This document shows, piece after piece, positions 47,912 through 53,686 of a stretch of DNA of 53,686 nucleotides (within the stretch, counting starts at the first letter, position 1; the number at the start of each line of letters is the position of its first letter). The translations under genes were made by a program, and so were the position numbers. The notes under the pieces were generated by a model, which searched no databases, was not told the DNA's origin, and saw nothing but the letters and a program-made list of their open reading frames with translations. The stretch is from Lachnospiraceae bacterium (GTDB lineage: Bacteria; Bacillota; Clostridia; Lachnospirales; Lachnospiraceae), in NCBI GenBank assembly GCA_024697065.1, contig JAILGE010000007.1:116658-170343 (forward strand), given 5' to 3'.

Positions 47912-49249
47912 ATGGGAACAGATATGACTAAAGGCTCGCCGTCAGCCATAATACTCAGATTTATGATACCGTTGCTTCTGGGAAACATTTTTCAGCAACT
48001 CTATAACATGGCAGATACCGTTATTGTCGGAAATTATGTCGGACAGAATGCTGTGGCCGCGGTCAGTTCTACCGGGACGGTAATGTTCCTTATCATGGGG
48101 ATCTGTCTGGGACTTACTAACGGATTCGCTGTACTTACCAGCCAAAGATACGGAGCAAAGGATTATGAGGGCTCAAGACGTTCGGTAGCCAACGGCATAA
48201 TGCTTGCGTTCATCATCATTGTTGTGATGACAGCATTGAGTCTTTTGTTTACAGATAATCTGCTTACGGCCATGAATACTCCTGCGGATATATATGAAGA
48301 TGCCAGGACTTATCTTTCCATAATATTCATGGGAATAATCTGCAGTGTATATTATAACCTGCTCAGTGCTTTCCTGCGTTCGTCGGGTAACAGCGTGGTG
48401 CCTCTTGGATTCCTTGTTTTTTCAGCATTCTTAAATGTCGGTCTCGATCTGGTATTTATCATTAATTTCGGTATGGGAGTGGCAGGGGCAGCTCTTGCAA
48501 CAGATATATCACAGGGAGTATCTGCAGTTCTTTGCTGGATCTATATAGTTAAGAAGGTACCGGAACTTTCGCCGAAAAAGAATGAGTGGAGGCTTTCAAA
48601 ACATATATCCAAAAATCAGCTCCATATCGGATTGCCTATGGCTATCCAGTTCGGTATCACTGCATCCGGAACCATCATAATGCAGTCTGCCATCAATCTT
48701 TTTGATTCCACTGCAGTGGCAGCTGTGGGTGCGGCTAATAAATTCCACAGCCTGCTTACTCAGGGCATGCTTGCCATCGGTCAGACAATGACAGCATATT
48801 CCGGACAGAACTATGGTGTGGCTGATTACGGAAGAGTTAGAAAGGGTATAAGATCTGCTCTTGTTATAATGTTTATCTATTCAGTGATTACGGGAGTATT
48901 GGCAATACTTCTTTATGAACCTATCCTGCCGCATTTCTTCAAGGAGGATGCGGATATAGCAGGGATGATGCCCTTTGCCAAGATCTATATATGGCAATGT
49001 GCATCCATGTATTTTCCTCTTTCTGCTATCTTTATCTTCAGAAATTCCATACAGGGATGTAACTATGCGCTGCTGCCTACCTGCTGTGGGGTGGTGGAAT
49101 TCGTTGCAAGAGGTATCTGTGCATTTGTATCCATCAAACTTCACAGCTTTTCACTGGCAGTCGGATGTGATCCCATAGCATGGGTAGCTGCCGGTATCTT
49201 TGGCGCTGTTGCGTGGCTCTGGGTCAGAAAAGATTTAGAGCGGGCATAA
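47912..49249 (+). CDS. MATE-family multidrug/Na+ antiporter
   Basis: A 445 aa, 12-helix transporter of the MATE (NorM/DinF-like) family. Typical are the N-terminal MTKGSPSAIILRFMIPLLLGNIFQQLYNMADTVIVG and the repeated inner segment VGAANKFHSLLTQGMLAIGQTM with A-Y-S-G-Q-N-Y-G. It exports drugs or toxic cations with H+ or Na+. RBS GGAAAGGAG. It is single, followed by an intergenic hairpin. Confidence 0.94.
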   Translation: MGTDMTKGSPSAIILRFMIPLLLGNIFQQLYNMADTVIVGNYVGQNAVAAVSSTGTVMFLIMGICLGLTNGFAVLTSQRYGAKDYEGSRRSVANGIMLAFIIIVVMTALSLLFTDNLLTAMNTPADIYEDARTYLSIIFMGIICSVYYNLLSAFLRSSGNSVVPLGFLVFSAFLNVGLDLVFIINFGMGVAGAALATDISQGVSAVLCWIYIVKKVPELSPKKNEWRLSKHISKNQLHIGLPMAIQFGITASGTIIMQSAINLFDSTAVAAVGAANKFHSLLTQGMLAIGQTMTAYSGQNYGVADYGRVRKGIRSALVIMFIYSVITGVLAILLYEPILPHFFKEDADIAGMMPFAKIYIWQCASMYFPLSAIFIFRNSIQGCNYALLPTCCGVVEFVARGICAFVSIKLHSFSLAVGCDPIAWVAAGIFGAVAWLWVRKDLERA

Positions 49250-49301
49250 GAATAATATGAAAGACAAGAGCATTTCGTTATGTTAAAATCTCCATTGGTA
49301 G

Positions 49302-49367
49302 AAAGTATATAATACTTTTTGAAAGGTGTTGTGGGGATGCACGCTATCCCGACACAGGGTGTTTTTT
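49302..49367 (+). promoter_or_regulatory. Promoter-like palindrome and attenuator-like hairpin before the secretion ATPase remnant
   Basis: A near-palindrome AAAGTAT-ATA-ATACTTT (49302-49318) contains TATAAT (49308-49313); the -35 is unclear. A 9-bp stem with one mismatch (49330-49338 with 49346-49354) then precedes a run of six T residues. This could be a transcriptional attenuator or a terminator. Confidence 0.4.
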
Positions 49368-49393
49368 ACAAAATACTCTTTGTGGAGGTTTAA

Positions 49394-49999
49394 ATGAATA
49401 ATTCCGGATATGTCTGCCTAATGATCATACTAAAGATGCCGGAGGTGAGATTTGACGGCAGGCATATCGAAGGGAGATTCAAAGAATCCACGGATACCGA
49501 TGTTGGTATCCTTAAAACAGCTAAAGAGCTGGGGCTCAGGGGCAAACTCACCAAATTTAAAGGAAAAGTAATATCACGTCTGACCGTACCTGGTATTTTA
49601 AAAAAGAAGGACGGGGCGTATTTTCTCGTTCTGAGAAAACAAGGGGATTCATGGCTCATTCTTGATCCTGCCAGGAAAAATCCGGAAAAGATATCAAATG
49701 AAGATCTAAGAGACAAGATAAAAGGCGACTGTATAATTATAGGAAAGAAGTCGGCGGGTAACGAATTGTCTTCTGATAAGCGATTTGGTTTCAGATGGTT
49801 TCTTCCCACTATATTCAAGTATAAAAAACAGTTTATAAGCATACTTCTTGCAGCATTTGTTAGTCTGTGCAGAGCGGTTTTATTTGTTCATACTACGAGC
49901 CGGATAGACGTTATATTGAGCGCAAGGTTATTCAGACATCTTTTCTCTCTTCCCTTAAAGTATTTTGAAAACAGAAGAACCGTTGAAACTGTGGCATAA
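49394..49999 (+). pseudogene. HlyB-like type I secretion ATPase remnant
   Basis: A 201 aa frame matching the N-terminal part of RTX-type ABC transporters (HlyB/LapB): a C39-like domain (residues about 1-120, with a LDPARKNPEKI block) that lacks the catalytic Cys and His, then KKQFISIL, then HTTSRIDVILSARLFRHLFSLPLKYFENRRTVETVA. Compared with HlyB it lacks about 50 residues between the first helices and the T-S-R-I-D motif, and everything after V-E-T-V-A, including the whole ATPase domain. It cannot be a working transporter. The start has GGAGG. Confidence 0.8.
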
Positions 50000-50017
50000 G
50001 CTTAATTTTGCAGTAGT

Positions 50018-50098
50018 ATGTCGGAATATATCAAAAATAAAGAATCACGAAGTGAGCAGCCGAACAAGAAGGAGGAAGAAAATGGCTTTTGTATATGA
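50018..50098 (+). pseudogene. Short frame resembling an HlyD N-terminus
   Basis: A 26-codon frame (MSEYIKNKESRSEQPNKKEE...) starts shortly after the ATPase remnant, in the same frame, and overlaps the next gene's start. Similar charged N-termini begin some HlyD membrane-fusion proteins, the normal neighbour of HlyB. Too short for certainty. Confidence 0.25.
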
Positions 50099-50522
50099 AG
50101 AAGTAGGAAAAGAGAACGAAGCTCTTTGGAATGAGATTGGATGGAGAGATTGGGCTGAAAGACCAAAAGGTTTTTATGAAAAAAAACAATGGTGTGCCGA
50201 TAAGGAACGTGGAGTATATATGTTACCAATCGGTAGCTTTAGAGATGAAACGCCAGATTATTATGATTTGGCTTATAAAAAAGTGATTGTTCGAATAGAA
50301 AGAGGATTTGATCCACGTGATATAGGAATAAAAGGATATGTTTTTGTCAGAGTTGATAGAGTTTATATTCCGATATCTATTTGGGAATATCGTGATGATA
50401 TATGCGGATGTATCAAAGAGTCTTTTGTGGCTTATGAGCGCGAGTATAATTCGAATATGAAAGTTGATGTAGAGTTTGAATGCGAGCCTGAATGTGTGGA
50501 GGCTGATTATAATGGTAGATAG
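50082..50522 (+). CDS. MAF-family small protein (immunity-like), copy 1
   Basis: A 146 aa protein, acidic and soluble, with no signal peptide. It starts MAFVYEEV, like the copies below, and shares C-A-D-K-E-R-G-V-Y-M (compare C-T-L-D-R-D-K-K-M-Y) and the C-terminal helix C-I-K-E-S-F-V-A-Y. ATG 50082 is preceded by AAGGAGGAAGAAA; the longer frame from 49965 is rejected because homology starts at 50082. It is the most diverged of the four. A role as immunity protein is inferred from its place before a toxin-tip-like frame. Confidence 0.65.
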   Translation: MAFVYEEVGKENEALWNEIGWRDWAERPKGFYEKKQWCADKERGVYMLPIGSFRDETPDYYDLAYKKVIVRIERGFDPRDIGIKGYVFVRVDRVYIPISIWEYRDDICGCIKESFVAYEREYNSNMKVDVEFECEPECVEADYNGR

Positions 50523-50590
50523 AGATGTTTTGTTGACGAGTTAGTGGGGATGTTATTGACTTATGTGAAAAATCTGGCGGGAAATACTAC

Positions 50591-51109
50591 ATGATAAGTC
50601 AGACTCAGGCGGATACATTGTGGGATGCTCCGTTTCAAAGAGCGGTTATGCATGCGATTGGCGATGATAAACTAACGGATGCAACAACCATACGTGTTCT
50701 TTCTGGCAAAATTGTAGATTCTTCTGGCAATAAGGTTCGGATAAATCAATATGCCACCGACAGCCATGAATTACTTGCACTTGATGATTTCCTGTCTTAT
50801 AAAGTTGCTGAAGCAGGTGCCCAGAAAGGCAATGTATTATACATTGTCGGAGATGAGCTCAGTGATACGTCTGTGGGAATGCTGACTGAGATACCGGAAG
50901 TATTCCGAGAAACGCTTGCTAACGGAGAAGATATTTCAGGGAAACTACAACTTGCAACTAATCTGCGATTGAACAATGCGGGGGAATACGAGTTCGACCT
51001 CGTTGATGCGGATAATATCAAATTATATCTGACGGAAACCGGCGGTGTAAAACTTGTTGATGTTGAAATAGACCATAGCTATAAGAATCAGATTGCACAA
51101 GCAGCGTGA
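50591..51109 (+). CDS. Toxin-tip-like frame, orphan and probably 5'-truncated
   Basis: A 172 aa frame I do not recognise. The protein-like frame continues upstream of ATG 50591 to base 50537 (VIDLCEKSGGKYYMIS...), so the gene probably began elsewhere and lost its front; an in-frame TGA is at 50534-50536. It ends in a short hydrophobic tail (IAQAA), as type I secretion C-termini sometimes do. It lies directly before a MAF-family gene. Toxin identity is inference from layout. A weak RBS (GGCGGG) precedes ATG 50591. Confidence 0.5.
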   Translation: MISQTQADTLWDAPFQRAVMHAIGDDKLTDATTIRVLSGKIVDSSGNKVRINQYATDSHELLALDDFLSYKVAEAGAQKGNVLYIVGDELSDTSVGMLTEIPEVFRETLANGEDISGKLQLATNLRLNNAGEYEFDLVDADNIKLYLTETGGVKLVDVEIDHSYKNQIAQAA

Positions 51110-51146
51110 AATAGAACATATATTGATTAATGTGGAGGAAAAGAAA

Positions 51147-51623
51147 ATGGCCTTTGTAAATGATTATTTGACTGAGGATGAGATTGAGAAATTTAGGAAA
51201 TTGAATATTTCTTATGGGAAAATGATATGTAATGAAGATAATGAAGTCGTGGGAACAGAGTCGGCTTATTACAAAGAAGGGATTCGATGTACTCTCGACA
51301 GAGATAAAAAAATGTATCTATTCTATTGTAACGACGATCAAGCATTTGGAAGAGAGGAATTTTGGTCACCAGAATTTTTTGTTTTCATTCAAGAAAAACA
51401 GAATGAACTAATTGTTACAAGAGTAGGATTGAAAAGAAAACATTTTAACAATTATAGCCGGCAGGTATGGAGTTTATATAGTATTAATTCAAAATGCTAT
51501 AAGACAAATATTGAATATGATTCAAAGAATATACTTGCATATTTGAAGGAAGCACTGACCACCTATGGGTTTGATGGTGATCCCCGAGAAATAGATGATG
51601 AAAGAACCGAATTCGATTTCTAA
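51147..51623 (+). CDS. MAF-family small protein (immunity-like), copy 2
   Basis: A 158 aa protein starting MAFVNDYLTEDEIEKFRKLNI, with motif C-T-L-D-R-D-K-K-M-Y-L-F-Y-C and C-terminus LKEALTTYGFDGDPREIDD. Its last two thirds and about 240 bases after the stop are repeated almost exactly at 52971. The first third differs from the partner at 52762 by more (by eye about 75-80% at DNA level), so the two paralogs look like they exchanged their 3' halves. GGAGGAAAAGAAA is the ribosome site; the start is ATG 51147. Confidence 0.75.
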   Translation: MAFVNDYLTEDEIEKFRKLNISYGKMICNEDNEVVGTESAYYKEGIRCTLDRDKKMYLFYCNDDQAFGREEFWSPEFFVFIQEKQNELIVTRVGLKRKHFNNYSRQVWSLYSINSKCYKTNIEYDSKNILAYLKEALTTYGFDGDPREIDDERTEFDF

Positions 51624-51862
51624 TATTCAAATATATAAGAGACATTTAAACTACAGTGTTATAACTAAACTGAGGATCTTACATAATGAATTTTACTGAT
51701 TATTTAAATAAGATAATAGAAGAGTTATCAGAAAAGGAAACGTATGGGCTGGATGACATTAAGGAAACAATCATAAATGCTAATTATGGCAGCGTAGAAT
51801 TATAGATGAGTAGCCAAACCTATAGAAAATGAAAAGATTGGCTATGACTTATTTAATAGTAG
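51356..51862 (+). repeat. 507-bp direct repeat, copy A
   Basis: Matches 52971-53477 with an offset of exactly 1615 bp, no gaps and about eight base differences counted by eye. It covers the 3' part of a MAF-family gene, its stop, a 39-codon frame and the spacer, ending 10 bases before ATG 51872, just at the ribosome site. Confidence 0.93.
51686..51805 (+). CDS. 39 aa frame downstream of MAF copy 2
   Basis: Encodes MNFTDYLNKIIEELSEKETY and on to ANYGSVEL. It is repeated at 53301-53420. The part D-D-I-K-E-T-I-I-N-A resembles D-E-I-E-E-V-I-S-S-L in the broken gene at 52319, so it may be the N-terminal scrap of a related protein. A GAGGA site is present but spacing is long. It may not be expressed. 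Confidence 0.45.
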   Translation: MNFTDYLNKIIEELSEKETYGLDDIKETIINANYGSVEL

Positions 51863-51871
51863 GAGGAAAAA

Positions 51872-52306
51872 ATGGCTTTTGAATTTATCACATTAACCAA
51901 AGAGGAGAAGGAAGAAATCAATTCCTGGAACATAAAAATACCATATTGTAGTTTGGGACAAACTATTGGTGAGTGGGATATTATTAATCCTGATATATGT
52001 GCCGCAGACAAAGACAGGAAAATATATTTGTTTGGAGCGTATTATGAACCGTTACGCAAGGAAAATAATTTAGCTTTTGCTTTTTTTTGGAAAGAAAAAT
52101 CTTATTTTGTACAATTTACGCGTGCGTTTGAAGATTCACACCATTTCTCTTGGAACATTCCCAACAGATATATGAATAAGGATCTTGTGTTTCCATATTG
52201 CTCAGAAGAAGGATTTATTGATGACCTCAGAGATGCTTTGATTGCGTATGGACCGGGAAGAGAGGGAGCAATAGAAGCGGGTATTATCACAAAGTGTGGA
52301 TTTTAA
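51872..52306 (+). CDS. MAF-family small protein (immunity-like), copy 3
   Basis: A 144 aa protein beginning MAFEFITLTKEEKEEINSWNI, with C-A-A-D-K-D-R-K-I-Y-L-F, F-S-W-N-I-P and L-R-D-A-L-I-A-Y, the same landmarks as the others but with distinct sequence. The strong AGGAGG ribosome site comes from the end of the repeat. No partner tip gene lies immediately before it, only the repeat spacer. Confidence 0.7.
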   Translation: MAFEFITLTKEEKEEINSWNIKIPYCSLGQTIGEWDIINPDICAADKDRKIYLFGAYYEPLRKENNLAFAFFWKEKSYFVQFTRAFEDSHHFSWNIPNRYMNKDLVFPYCSEEGFIDDLRDALIAYGPGREGAIEAGIITKCGF

Positions 52307-52318
52307 AGGGGATGTTCA

Positions 52319-52731
52319 ATGGAAATTTCAAATGAAGAAATTCTTGAATTAATAAAACTGCAACAACTCAGGATGAGATTGAAGAGGTAATATCAAGTTT
52401 ATCTGTGGAAGATAATAAAGAAACAACAATATTATATTCAGGGAGCGTATGTCCAAGAGTTAATTAAGATGAATATAGATATATATTGCATACGGATGCG
52501 GCTAAAGTGCTTGAAAGTGATACTTTTAACACATTAATACTAAATATGGTAAAAAGCAAGCGCTTAAATGGCGAGTATGCAGATGTTGCGGTAGTAAGTA
52601 TTGGCTTTGATGCTGATGGTAAGTCAAATGTCCGTTTTGACCCCAAGGGTATTGTCGCGTCCAAAGAGCTGGATGCCGGCGTAGGCGGCTCAAAGATAGG
52701 TGCACGTGTCGGTGTTGCTATGGCAGTATAA
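52319..52731 (+). pseudogene. Broken tip-like gene with frameshift and in-frame stop
   Basis: A frame starts at ATG 52319 (RBS AAAGGGG), runs MEISNEEILELIK and stops after 23 codons. The sense continues in another frame as TTQDEIEEVISSLS to YSGSVCPRVN, then a TAA at 52465-52467, then DEYRYILHTDAAKVLESDTF through to GVAMAV. A single frameshift near 52360 plus one stop would explain it. The last part from TTG 52486 is an 81 aa frame. It is likely a decayed toxin-tip-like gene ahead of MAF copy 4. Identity unknown. Confidence 0.6.
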
Positions 52732-52761
52732 ATAATTGAAACGTAATAACGAGGTATAAAA

Positions 52762-53238
52762 ATGGCTTTTGTAAATGATTATTTGACAGAGGAAGAGATT
52801 GAGAAATTTAGAAAACTGAATATTTCGTACGGGAAGAAAATATGTATAGTGTCAGATAAAATCGTAGGAACTAAGATCAGTAGAATATTTGGTGGTGTTA
52901 TTTGTACGATAGATAGATCTAATGGAATGTATCTGTTTTACTGTGGGGATGATTCATCTTTTGGAAGGGAGGAATTTTGGTCACCGGAATTCTTTGTTTT
53001 CATTCAAGAAAAACAGAATGAACTAATTGTTACAAGAGTAGGATTGAAAAGAAAACATTTTAACAATTATAGCCGGCAGGTATGGAGTTTATATAGTATT
53101 AATTCAAAATACTATAAGACAAATATTGAATATGATTCAAAGAATATACTTGCATATTTGAAGGAAGCACTGACCACCTATGGGTTTGATGGTGATCCCC
53201 GAGAAATAGATGATGAAAGTACCGAATTCGATTTCTAA
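52762..53238 (+). CDS. MAF-family small protein (immunity-like), copy 4
   Basis: A 158 aa protein, MAFVNDYLTEEEIEKFRKLNI, motif C-T-I-D-R-S-N-G-M-Y-L-F-Y-C; from FGREEFWSPEFF onward nearly identical to copy 2. Residues about 20-65 carry most differences, so specificity could lie there. ATG 52762 has a GAGG site. It follows the broken tip gene by 30 bases. Confidence 0.75.
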   Translation: MAFVNDYLTEEEIEKFRKLNISYGKKICIVSDKIVGTKISRIFGGVICTIDRSNGMYLFYCGDDSSFGREEFWSPEFFVFIQEKQNELIVTRVGLKRKHFNNYSRQVWSLYSINSKYYKTNIEYDSKNILAYLKEALTTYGFDGDPREIDDESTEFDF

Positions 53239-53477
53239 TATTCAAACATATAAGAGACATTTAAACTACAGTATTATAACTAAACTGAGGATCTTACATA
53301 ATGAATTTTACTGATTATTTAAATAAGATAATAGAAGAGTTATCAGAAAAGGAAACGTATGGGTTGGATGACATTAAGGAAACAATCATAAATGCTAATT
53401 ATGGCAGCGTAGAATTATAGATGAGTAGCCAAACCTATAGAAAAGGAAAAGATTGGCTATGACTTATTTAATAGTAG
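52971..53477 (+). repeat. 507-bp direct repeat, copy B
   Basis: Second copy of the repeat at 51356-51862. The match ends at 53477, where copy A continues into the ribosome site and gene of MAF copy 3 while this copy continues into non-coding DNA. Confidence 0.93.
53301..53420 (+). CDS. 39 aa frame downstream of MAF copy 4
   Basis: Second copy of the 51686-51805 frame, same length, one DNA difference that is silent or nearly so. It has the same unclear status. Confidence 0.4.
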   Translation: MNFTDYLNKIIEELSEKETYGLDDIKETIINANYGSVEL

Positions 53478-53686
53478 ACTAACTATTAGAAATAGTCAAT
53501 AAAAAGTATTTAAAACAGAAATGTTTTGAATATAGTGGCGATGACCATATCATCGCAATCAGTACATTGAAAATTGCATGACAAATAGAGCATCAGATAT
53601 GGTGCTCTGACAAGAAGATATGATATTGGAATGATTAATTAGCTTTTATGTATTGCTGACCAGATGATTCAAGTTGATATATGACT
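53478..53686. other. Non-coding end of window
   Basis: No coding frame is supported. The stretch is AT-rich and holds several short inverted repeats: GACTA/TAGTC (about 53476-53496), a perfect 7-bp stem GCGATGA/TCATCGC with a 5-base loop near 53538, and GAGCA/TGCTC near 53589. They could be remnants of another cassette or structured RNA. Confidence 0.4.

Follow-up and report, generated by a model that had tools for sequence, protein, structure and literature searches.

The described systems closest to the locus treated here pair an RTX protein, or a homologue of its N-terminal domain, with a partner protein. For instance, FrpD of Neisseria meningitidis binds the N-terminal domain of the RTX protein FrpC with a dissociation constant of ~0.2 nM, and both are encoded consecutively in the frpDC operon (PMC5233953). 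In Stenotrophomonas maltophilia, the antibacterial effector Smlt3024 is homologous to RTX N-terminal domains and its immunity protein Smlt3025 has an FrpD-like topology; the authors hypothesised that FrpC and FrpD constitute an effector/immunity pair of a type I secretion system (T1SS) (PMC6759196). The subject of this report is the final part of a 53,686-nucleotide stretch from a Lachnospiraceae bacterium (the window, G000:C33:116658-170343, whose end coincides with the contig end). There, the 5' remnant of an HlyB-type exporter gene is followed by an array of four small related genes, termed MAF1 to MAF4, and this end of the window is most likely the relic of an RTX/type I secretion (HlyB-HlyD) locus.

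The window was read as an RTX polymorphic-toxin locus because the order of partner, N-terminal head and RTX core resembles FrpD-FrpC and Smlt3024. As in the loci of relatives described below, the partner and RTX genes of FrpD-FrpC are consecutive. FrpD is, however, an outer-membrane lipoprotein, whereas the MAF profiles have no significant match to solved structures, and the accessible part of the FrpD-FrpC paper describes no arrays (PMC5233953). The Smlt3024/Smlt3025 pair differs in its type IV delivery and its Gram-negative host. Arrays next to the main toxin gene are formed by the orphan cdiA-CT/cdiI and rhs-CT/rhsI modules, in which toxin fragments, detached and for the most part devoid of start signals, are each accompanied by a small immunity gene (PMC3150448). 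Those systems vary at the C-terminus and encode immunity downstream, in contrast to the N-terminal variable part and upstream partner seen here. In Firmicutes, tandem paralogues of EsaG and TipC, immunity proteins of type VII secretion systems, recombine through shared sequence blocks (PMC9484751), comparable to the string of paralogous genes in the window, where MAF2 and MAF4 form a mosaic with shared blocks; the secretion route is different, and the likeness is drawn from the description of those arrays.

RTX proteins with HlyB/HlyD in Gram-positive bacteria are already known. FtxA of the Gram-positive anaerobe Filifactor alocis is an RTX protein accompanied by the HlyB/HlyD equivalents FtxB and FtxD, with no partner or immunity gene mentioned in the accessible text (PMC7692872), RTX type I secretion was reported in the Gram-positive Streptococcus sanguinis (PMC3034196), and the type I system is named for RTX toxins in a survey of polymorphic toxins from 2012 (PMC3482391). 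A preliminary description of the window, made from its letters alone, had called type I secretion in a Gram-positive anaerobe a non-standard arrangement; these publications describe it for RTX proteins in Gram-positives. The reading preferred here, with a probability of roughly 0.6, is that the window holds the relic of an RTX/T1SS polymorphic-toxin locus whose exporter, heads and core decayed or were lost while four partner genes stayed open, leaving an immunity-only remnant.

An exporter remnant and four open small genes

The exporter is present solely as an N-terminal remnant (49394..49999, + strand), a single frame of 201 amino acids (aa) that covers the first ~200 of ~700 HlyB residues with an internal gap and comprises a C39-like domain and the start of the membrane region. 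It matched TIGR01846 with an E value of 2.2e-34, the best stretch lying at model positions 3-149 and a second, found in the own-genome search, at 194-244, which bears out the HlyB-like remnant of the preliminary description. Pfam Peptidase_C39 was matched as well (E 5.3e-9), and the identity to three HlyB proteins of 705-728 aa was 31-36%; the score is far under the TIGR01846 cut-off for a whole HlyB. Among the matches listed for the same genome (G000), no other HlyB-model match starts before model position 86. The RTX marker PF06594 had zero matches in G000, and no HlyD frame was noticed beside the remnant among the open reading frames of the window, no search aimed at HlyD having been made in G000.

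Downstream of the remnant, each of the four small genes precedes a coding piece that is damaged or short, giving the order MAF1 and fragment A, MAF2 and a 39-aa frame, MAF3 and gene B, and MAF4 and a second 39-aa frame. All four MAF genes are open and lie on the + strand: MAF1 (50082..50522, 146 aa), MAF2 (51147..51623, 158 aa), MAF3 (51872..52306, 144 aa) and MAF4 (52762..53238, 158 aa). The four related small proteins of the preliminary description were thus confirmed together with two of their landmarks, [MIV]-Y-[LM] and [LI]-[KR]-[ED]-[AS]-[LF]-x-x-Y, which are present in 4/4 proteins; C-x-x-D-[KR] is found in three, and MAF1 shows C-x-D-K. MAF1 is the weakest family member, matching a profile built without it at E 0.069 (4/1000 shuffles equal). 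MAF3 is 42.5% identical to a gene of another Lachnospiraceae genome, G164 (E 3e-28), which is also matched by MAF2 (E 5e-6) and MAF4 (E 2e-6), and the relatives of MAF3 in another genus show 40-43% identity.

MAF2 and MAF4 are 84% identical and form a mosaic. A tandem duplication with a spacing of 1615 (51380-51863 versus 52995-53478, 477/484 bases identical) starts inside MAF2 and extends beyond the 39-aa frame, and residues 28-65 have diverged strongly. Over residues 1-65 there is an excess of synonymous changes (23 on 37 sites versus 39 on 158; Fisher p 2.5e-5), indicating that MAF2 and MAF4 were under purifying selection. Judged by these sequence features the MAF genes are real genes, which may have been kept open by selection for immunity.

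The profile searches recommended in the preliminary description returned nothing significant in Pfam or the Protein Data Bank (PDB) for the small proteins or fragment A. Specifically, Pfam gave no significant match for the MAF proteins scanned, and PDB sequences gave none for MAF profiles A2 and A4, for one partner protein from genome G221 or for fragment A. The best E value was 0.013 in PHROGs (9 members of MAF profile A4) and only 0.012 with the PADLOC models. A, B and the B relative C introduced below had no significant match in the domain and system libraries searched.

The coding pieces following the four MAF genes (50546-51109, 51686-51805, 52319-52731 and 53301-53420) are most likely N-terminal heads downstream of their own MAF gene rather than C-terminal tips upstream of a partner. 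Gene B (52319..52731, + strand), a probable RTX head, is interrupted by a frameshift as well as an in-frame stop; its relative C in locus L050 of the congener G027 is one open frame, and the B-C comparison was equalled by 0/1000 shuffles. The preliminary description had listed two larger frames lacking proper 5' ends. This holds for fragment A (50546..51109, + strand), possibly an RTX head without its 5' end, with a start codon at 50512 that overlaps the MAF1 end and opens a frame of 10 codons only; 52468-52731, by contrast, is the 3' part of gene B, which begins about 52319, and a coding piece follows all four genes. The 39-aa frames (51686..51805 and its duplicate at the spacing of 1615, 53301..53420, both + strand) may be truncated starts of head genes, as suggested by the position after MAF2.

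Two further relics were observed. Contig C36 of G000 carries a second ruin with the 3' end of a B-like gene, a frameshifted MAF gene and an end piece; across its junction, the DNA is 93% identical to the B-MAF junction of the window over 89 bases running into the next MAF gene. In G027, an HlyB start, 70% identical to the window remnant over 67 residues, is fused to an HlyD C-terminus (TIGR01843 E 1.6e-13), followed by a 3' fragment of a MAF gene and then by the open frame C, which begins at its own GTG twelve bases past the MAF stop. The end pieces of C36 and G027 are related by DNA (77% over 91 bases, 85% over 54 bases), and it is a guess that they are RTX C-termini. Within the genus sample of 35 genomes (34 congeners and G000), the HlyB remnant was found in two and MAF in the same two.

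The junction conserved in C36, in which the 3' end of B recurs jointly with the next MAF gene, is what would be expected if the fragments were C-terminal toxin tips with their immunity genes downstream (A with MAF2, B with MAF4), as the preliminary description had proposed. That arrangement is nevertheless improbable, since C begins at a start codon of its own, 12 bases downstream of a MAF gene, a MAF relative precedes the RTX gene in locus L088, and A and B differ although MAF2 and MAF4 are so similar. The related loci likewise show an N-terminal variable head with the partner directly upstream, the reverse of orphan tips with downstream immunity.

RTX loci of related genomes

A search with the HlyB remnant across 397 Lachnospiraceae genomes (396 without G000) matched 15 genomes. 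Strong relatives were defined by E 5e-16 or better, so that ten rows at E 3e-5 or weaker, from nine genomes, were not counted as strong; besides G000, they are G215, G164, G221, G180 and G367, with open frames of 711-732 aa. HlyB and HlyD of locus L069 (one each scanned) scored above the curated cut-offs. PF06594 was found in 5/397 genomes, four of them among the five with strong HlyB (p 2.5e-8; this and the other co-occurrence p values leave out G000, the source of the HlyB and MAF queries). On this point the preliminary description, with its toxin/immunity-like cassettes behind a wrecked type I secretion transporter, is supported.

In G215 and G180, the C-terminus of an RTX protein ends just ahead of HlyB-HlyD. 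In G367, three related small proteins are encoded after HlyB-HlyD, and an RTX gene comes next across a contig end (55-base exact overlap), so that the RTX gene can also sit on the far side of HlyD; the G027 relic suggests the same. A small gene lies directly upstream on the same strand in 5/5 readable RTX-type gene starts (L086, L087, L088, L090 and L091), a count that includes G120 (L091) despite its marginal RTX match. By analogy with the described pairs, this adjoining gene may neutralise the toxin as an immunity gene.

In L088, from G180, the only genome of its genus, the upstream small gene is a MAF relative whose stop codon overlaps the RTX start. The MAF3-type profile ranked the G027 fragment first and the G180 gene second (E 8e-5) of 704 frames drawn from 12 loci picked for T1SS, RTX or relics. 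The pairwise comparison of the G180 gene with MAF3 gave E 3.6e-4 (0/1000 shuffles equal); MAF1, MAF2 and MAF4 taken singly were not significant against it. A separate kinship, of MAF2 with a 247-aa neighbour in L088, was dropped, as the pairwise match (E 0.003) was not borne out by the profile (721/1000 shuffles equal).

The heads vary while the cores do not. Among four RTX proteins, heads matched in 0/6 pairs and cores in 6/6, although the head/core boundaries were taken from the pairwise alignments and the head result partly follows from that definition. A variable part on a conserved carrier was seen in the relatives only, the window having no core. A lipase-type (Mbeg1-like) head occurs in L087, and a Mbeg1-like orphan head fragment lies further upstream in L088. 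The L088 head itself gave no significant PDB match, the best E value over all PDB searches being 0.0082, to a designed repeat protein.

Cassettes of partner and head start are repeated ahead of the toxin gene. In L087 (G221:C20), a 260-aa partner is followed by a head fragment, then by a 264-aa partner and the RTX gene; over 155 residues, the fragment and the head of that RTX gene are 91% identical. The partner is doubled in L086 (G221:C45; 91%) and present in three copies in G367. In L091 (G120:C13, 1-13936), a membrane-type partner and an N-terminal fragment are doubled ahead of a 3709-aa protein, which has a signal-peptide-like start (by reading), an RTX marker at only E 4e-5 and no strong HlyB; it seems not to be of the T1SS type, representing instead the reversed orphan layout on what may be another secretion route.

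The hlyC gene sits upstream of hlyA. A comparable role for the MAF proteins, assisting the secretion or folding of RTX proteins (as chaperone, activator or surface anchor) instead of conferring immunity, would agree with L088, where the MAF relative immediately precedes the RTX gene and overlaps its start. This alternative is regarded as rather unlikely: the MAF proteins scanned have no significant Pfam match, other RTX genes have upstream partners that seem to belong to different families changing with the head, the compared partners match neither MAF nor each other at E <= 0.05, partners are duplicated, and the MAF genes are open despite a broken exporter.

The refuting conditions named in the preliminary description, tip frames never fused to longer secreted proteins and small proteins occurring mainly without such partners, gave a mixed outcome. 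Among the few genomes available, MAF tends to co-occur with HlyB loci (G164 and G027). At E <= 1e-3, MAF was found in 1/396 family genomes (G164), one of the five with strong HlyB (p 0.013), and in 1/34 congeners (G027), the one with an HlyB remnant (p 0.03). In G164 (L047/L071; G164:C29, JAFQBM010000056.1), MAF genes belong to an array of eleven small genes at a contig end, comprising four MAF and one MAF-like gene, two related proteins of 167 and 179 aa and membrane-type proteins; no toxin fragment was seen in this array. MAF profile A3 found one locus among public genome contigs, which is the same G164 array, from Lachnospiraceae bacterium RGIG1668 (goat cecum). It is improbable that MAF is an unrelated small-protein family beside a dead transporter by chance, even though the libraries searched give no described function for the family and the MAF array and HlyB of G164 are on separate contigs; the co-occurrence in family and genus, few as the genomes are, and the arrangements of L088 and L050 argue otherwise.

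Several results weigh against the reading of the window as an immunity-only relic. The co-occurrence of MAF and HlyB rests on one genome per sample once G000 is left out, and in G164 the two are on different contigs. The family-wide search with the four window MAF proteins missed the G180 gene, to which broader MAF profiles gave only E 0.0019-0.0026 (2/1000 shuffles equal). Regarding the heads, the preliminary description had sought tip frames fused to longer secreted proteins: fragment A has no full-length protein at E <= 1e-3 across the 397 genomes and reached the L088 RTX head at 6/1000 shuffles in a directed pairwise comparison, one of several, with the profile search giving only E 4.2. 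Nor is fragment A related to B or C (867 and 705 of 1000 shuffles equal). The B/C profile fails to find the L088 head (E 6.5), and pairwise comparison with that head was equalled by 25/1000 shuffles for C and by 200/1000, which is not significant, for B. The 39-aa frame was not significant against other head starts (128 and 271 of 1000 shuffles), its assignment following position only, and neither was the G027 end piece against RTX ends (55, 903 and 165 of 1000 shuffles equal). Finally, MAF2 and MAF4 are nearly alike though their adjoining fragments differ, so a strict one-to-one pairing misfits unless recombination homogenised them. That fragment A and the 39-aa frames are heads is accordingly put forward here as a suggestion.

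Leader element and flanking features

A leader element with possible RNA structure occurs in four copies in G000. Copy 1 (51811..51864, + strand) lies ahead of MAF3, and copy 2 (53426..53478, + strand) lies after the second 39-aa frame and is ended by a 138-base repeat; the others are ahead of a comEC-like gene (L008:17828-17895, - strand) and of a phosphoesterase gene (L007:384-462), both names being given by reading. A conserved loop, CAAACCTAnAGAAAA, is held within a stem varying by paired changes, and by eye it could pair with the Shine-Dalgarno stretch. The folding of the element is better than that of most shuffled sequences (z -2.1 to -2.4), and it has no match in Rfam; it is possibly an undescribed regulatory RNA. 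Rfam as a whole gave nothing at E <= 5 within 49200-53686.

The 138-base repeat (53476..53613, strand not given) also terminates contigs C44 and C10 of G000 and is probably the stretch before the rRNA operon, marking assembly breaks at rRNA operons. On the other side, a MATE-type transporter gene (47912-49249; name from reading of the sequence) lies 5' of the HlyB remnant. The G+C content is 0.354 for 50001-52000, within the array, versus 0.395-0.489 in the other windows measured.

A phage or plasmid origin of the array was considered and is unsupported. MAF3 had no tblastn match among 50,697 phage or 72,556 plasmid records, fragment A had none in plasmid records, and MAF profile A3, the HlyB remnant and the leader pattern had none in viral contigs.

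In the relatives, TolC-like short frames were observed after HlyD, of 261 aa in G180 (L069:4432-5217) and 275 aa in G221 (L068:9876-10703, - strand). The former matched Pfam OEP (E 8.5e-6), and the latter was judged by eye.

Organisation and biology of the proposed toxin system

In the proposed system, HlyB-HlyD would export intact RTX proteins in which an exchangeable head at the N-terminus is joined to an RTX core and, at the C-terminus, a secretion part. Immediately upstream of each head, a gene would code for its cognate partner, here MAF, which would bind the head and protect the producer and its kin. Spare cassettes of a partner and a head start would pile up 5' of the toxin gene, recombinable onto the common core. 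In the window, the exporter, heads and core would have decayed or been lost, with the four partner genes remaining open. Immunity by head binding is suggested by the precedents of FrpD/FrpC and Smlt3025/Smlt3024. By the same analogy, the MAF proteins may be immunity proteins for RTX heads, and the heads would then be toxic to bacteria.

The secretion signal of RTX toxins is C-terminal. A T1SS version of a polymorphic toxin must therefore put its variable part at the N-terminus, with the whole locus reversed, and the related loci do show the reversed order of partner, head and core. There is about an even chance that Lachnospiraceae carry such a mirror-image T1SS polymorphic toxin system, with N-terminal heads, upstream immunity and 5' cassettes in an order dictated by the C-terminal signal, of which the window would be an immunity-only relic. 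In the literature searched, whose coverage mostly leaves subscription papers outside, no description of the layout with an upstream partner and an N-terminal head was met. The finding bears on the open question of what pairs of the FrpC/FrpD type do. If the partners are immunity proteins, the system would give gut bacteria of the Lachnospiraceae an additional route by which to deliver toxins in competition with one another.

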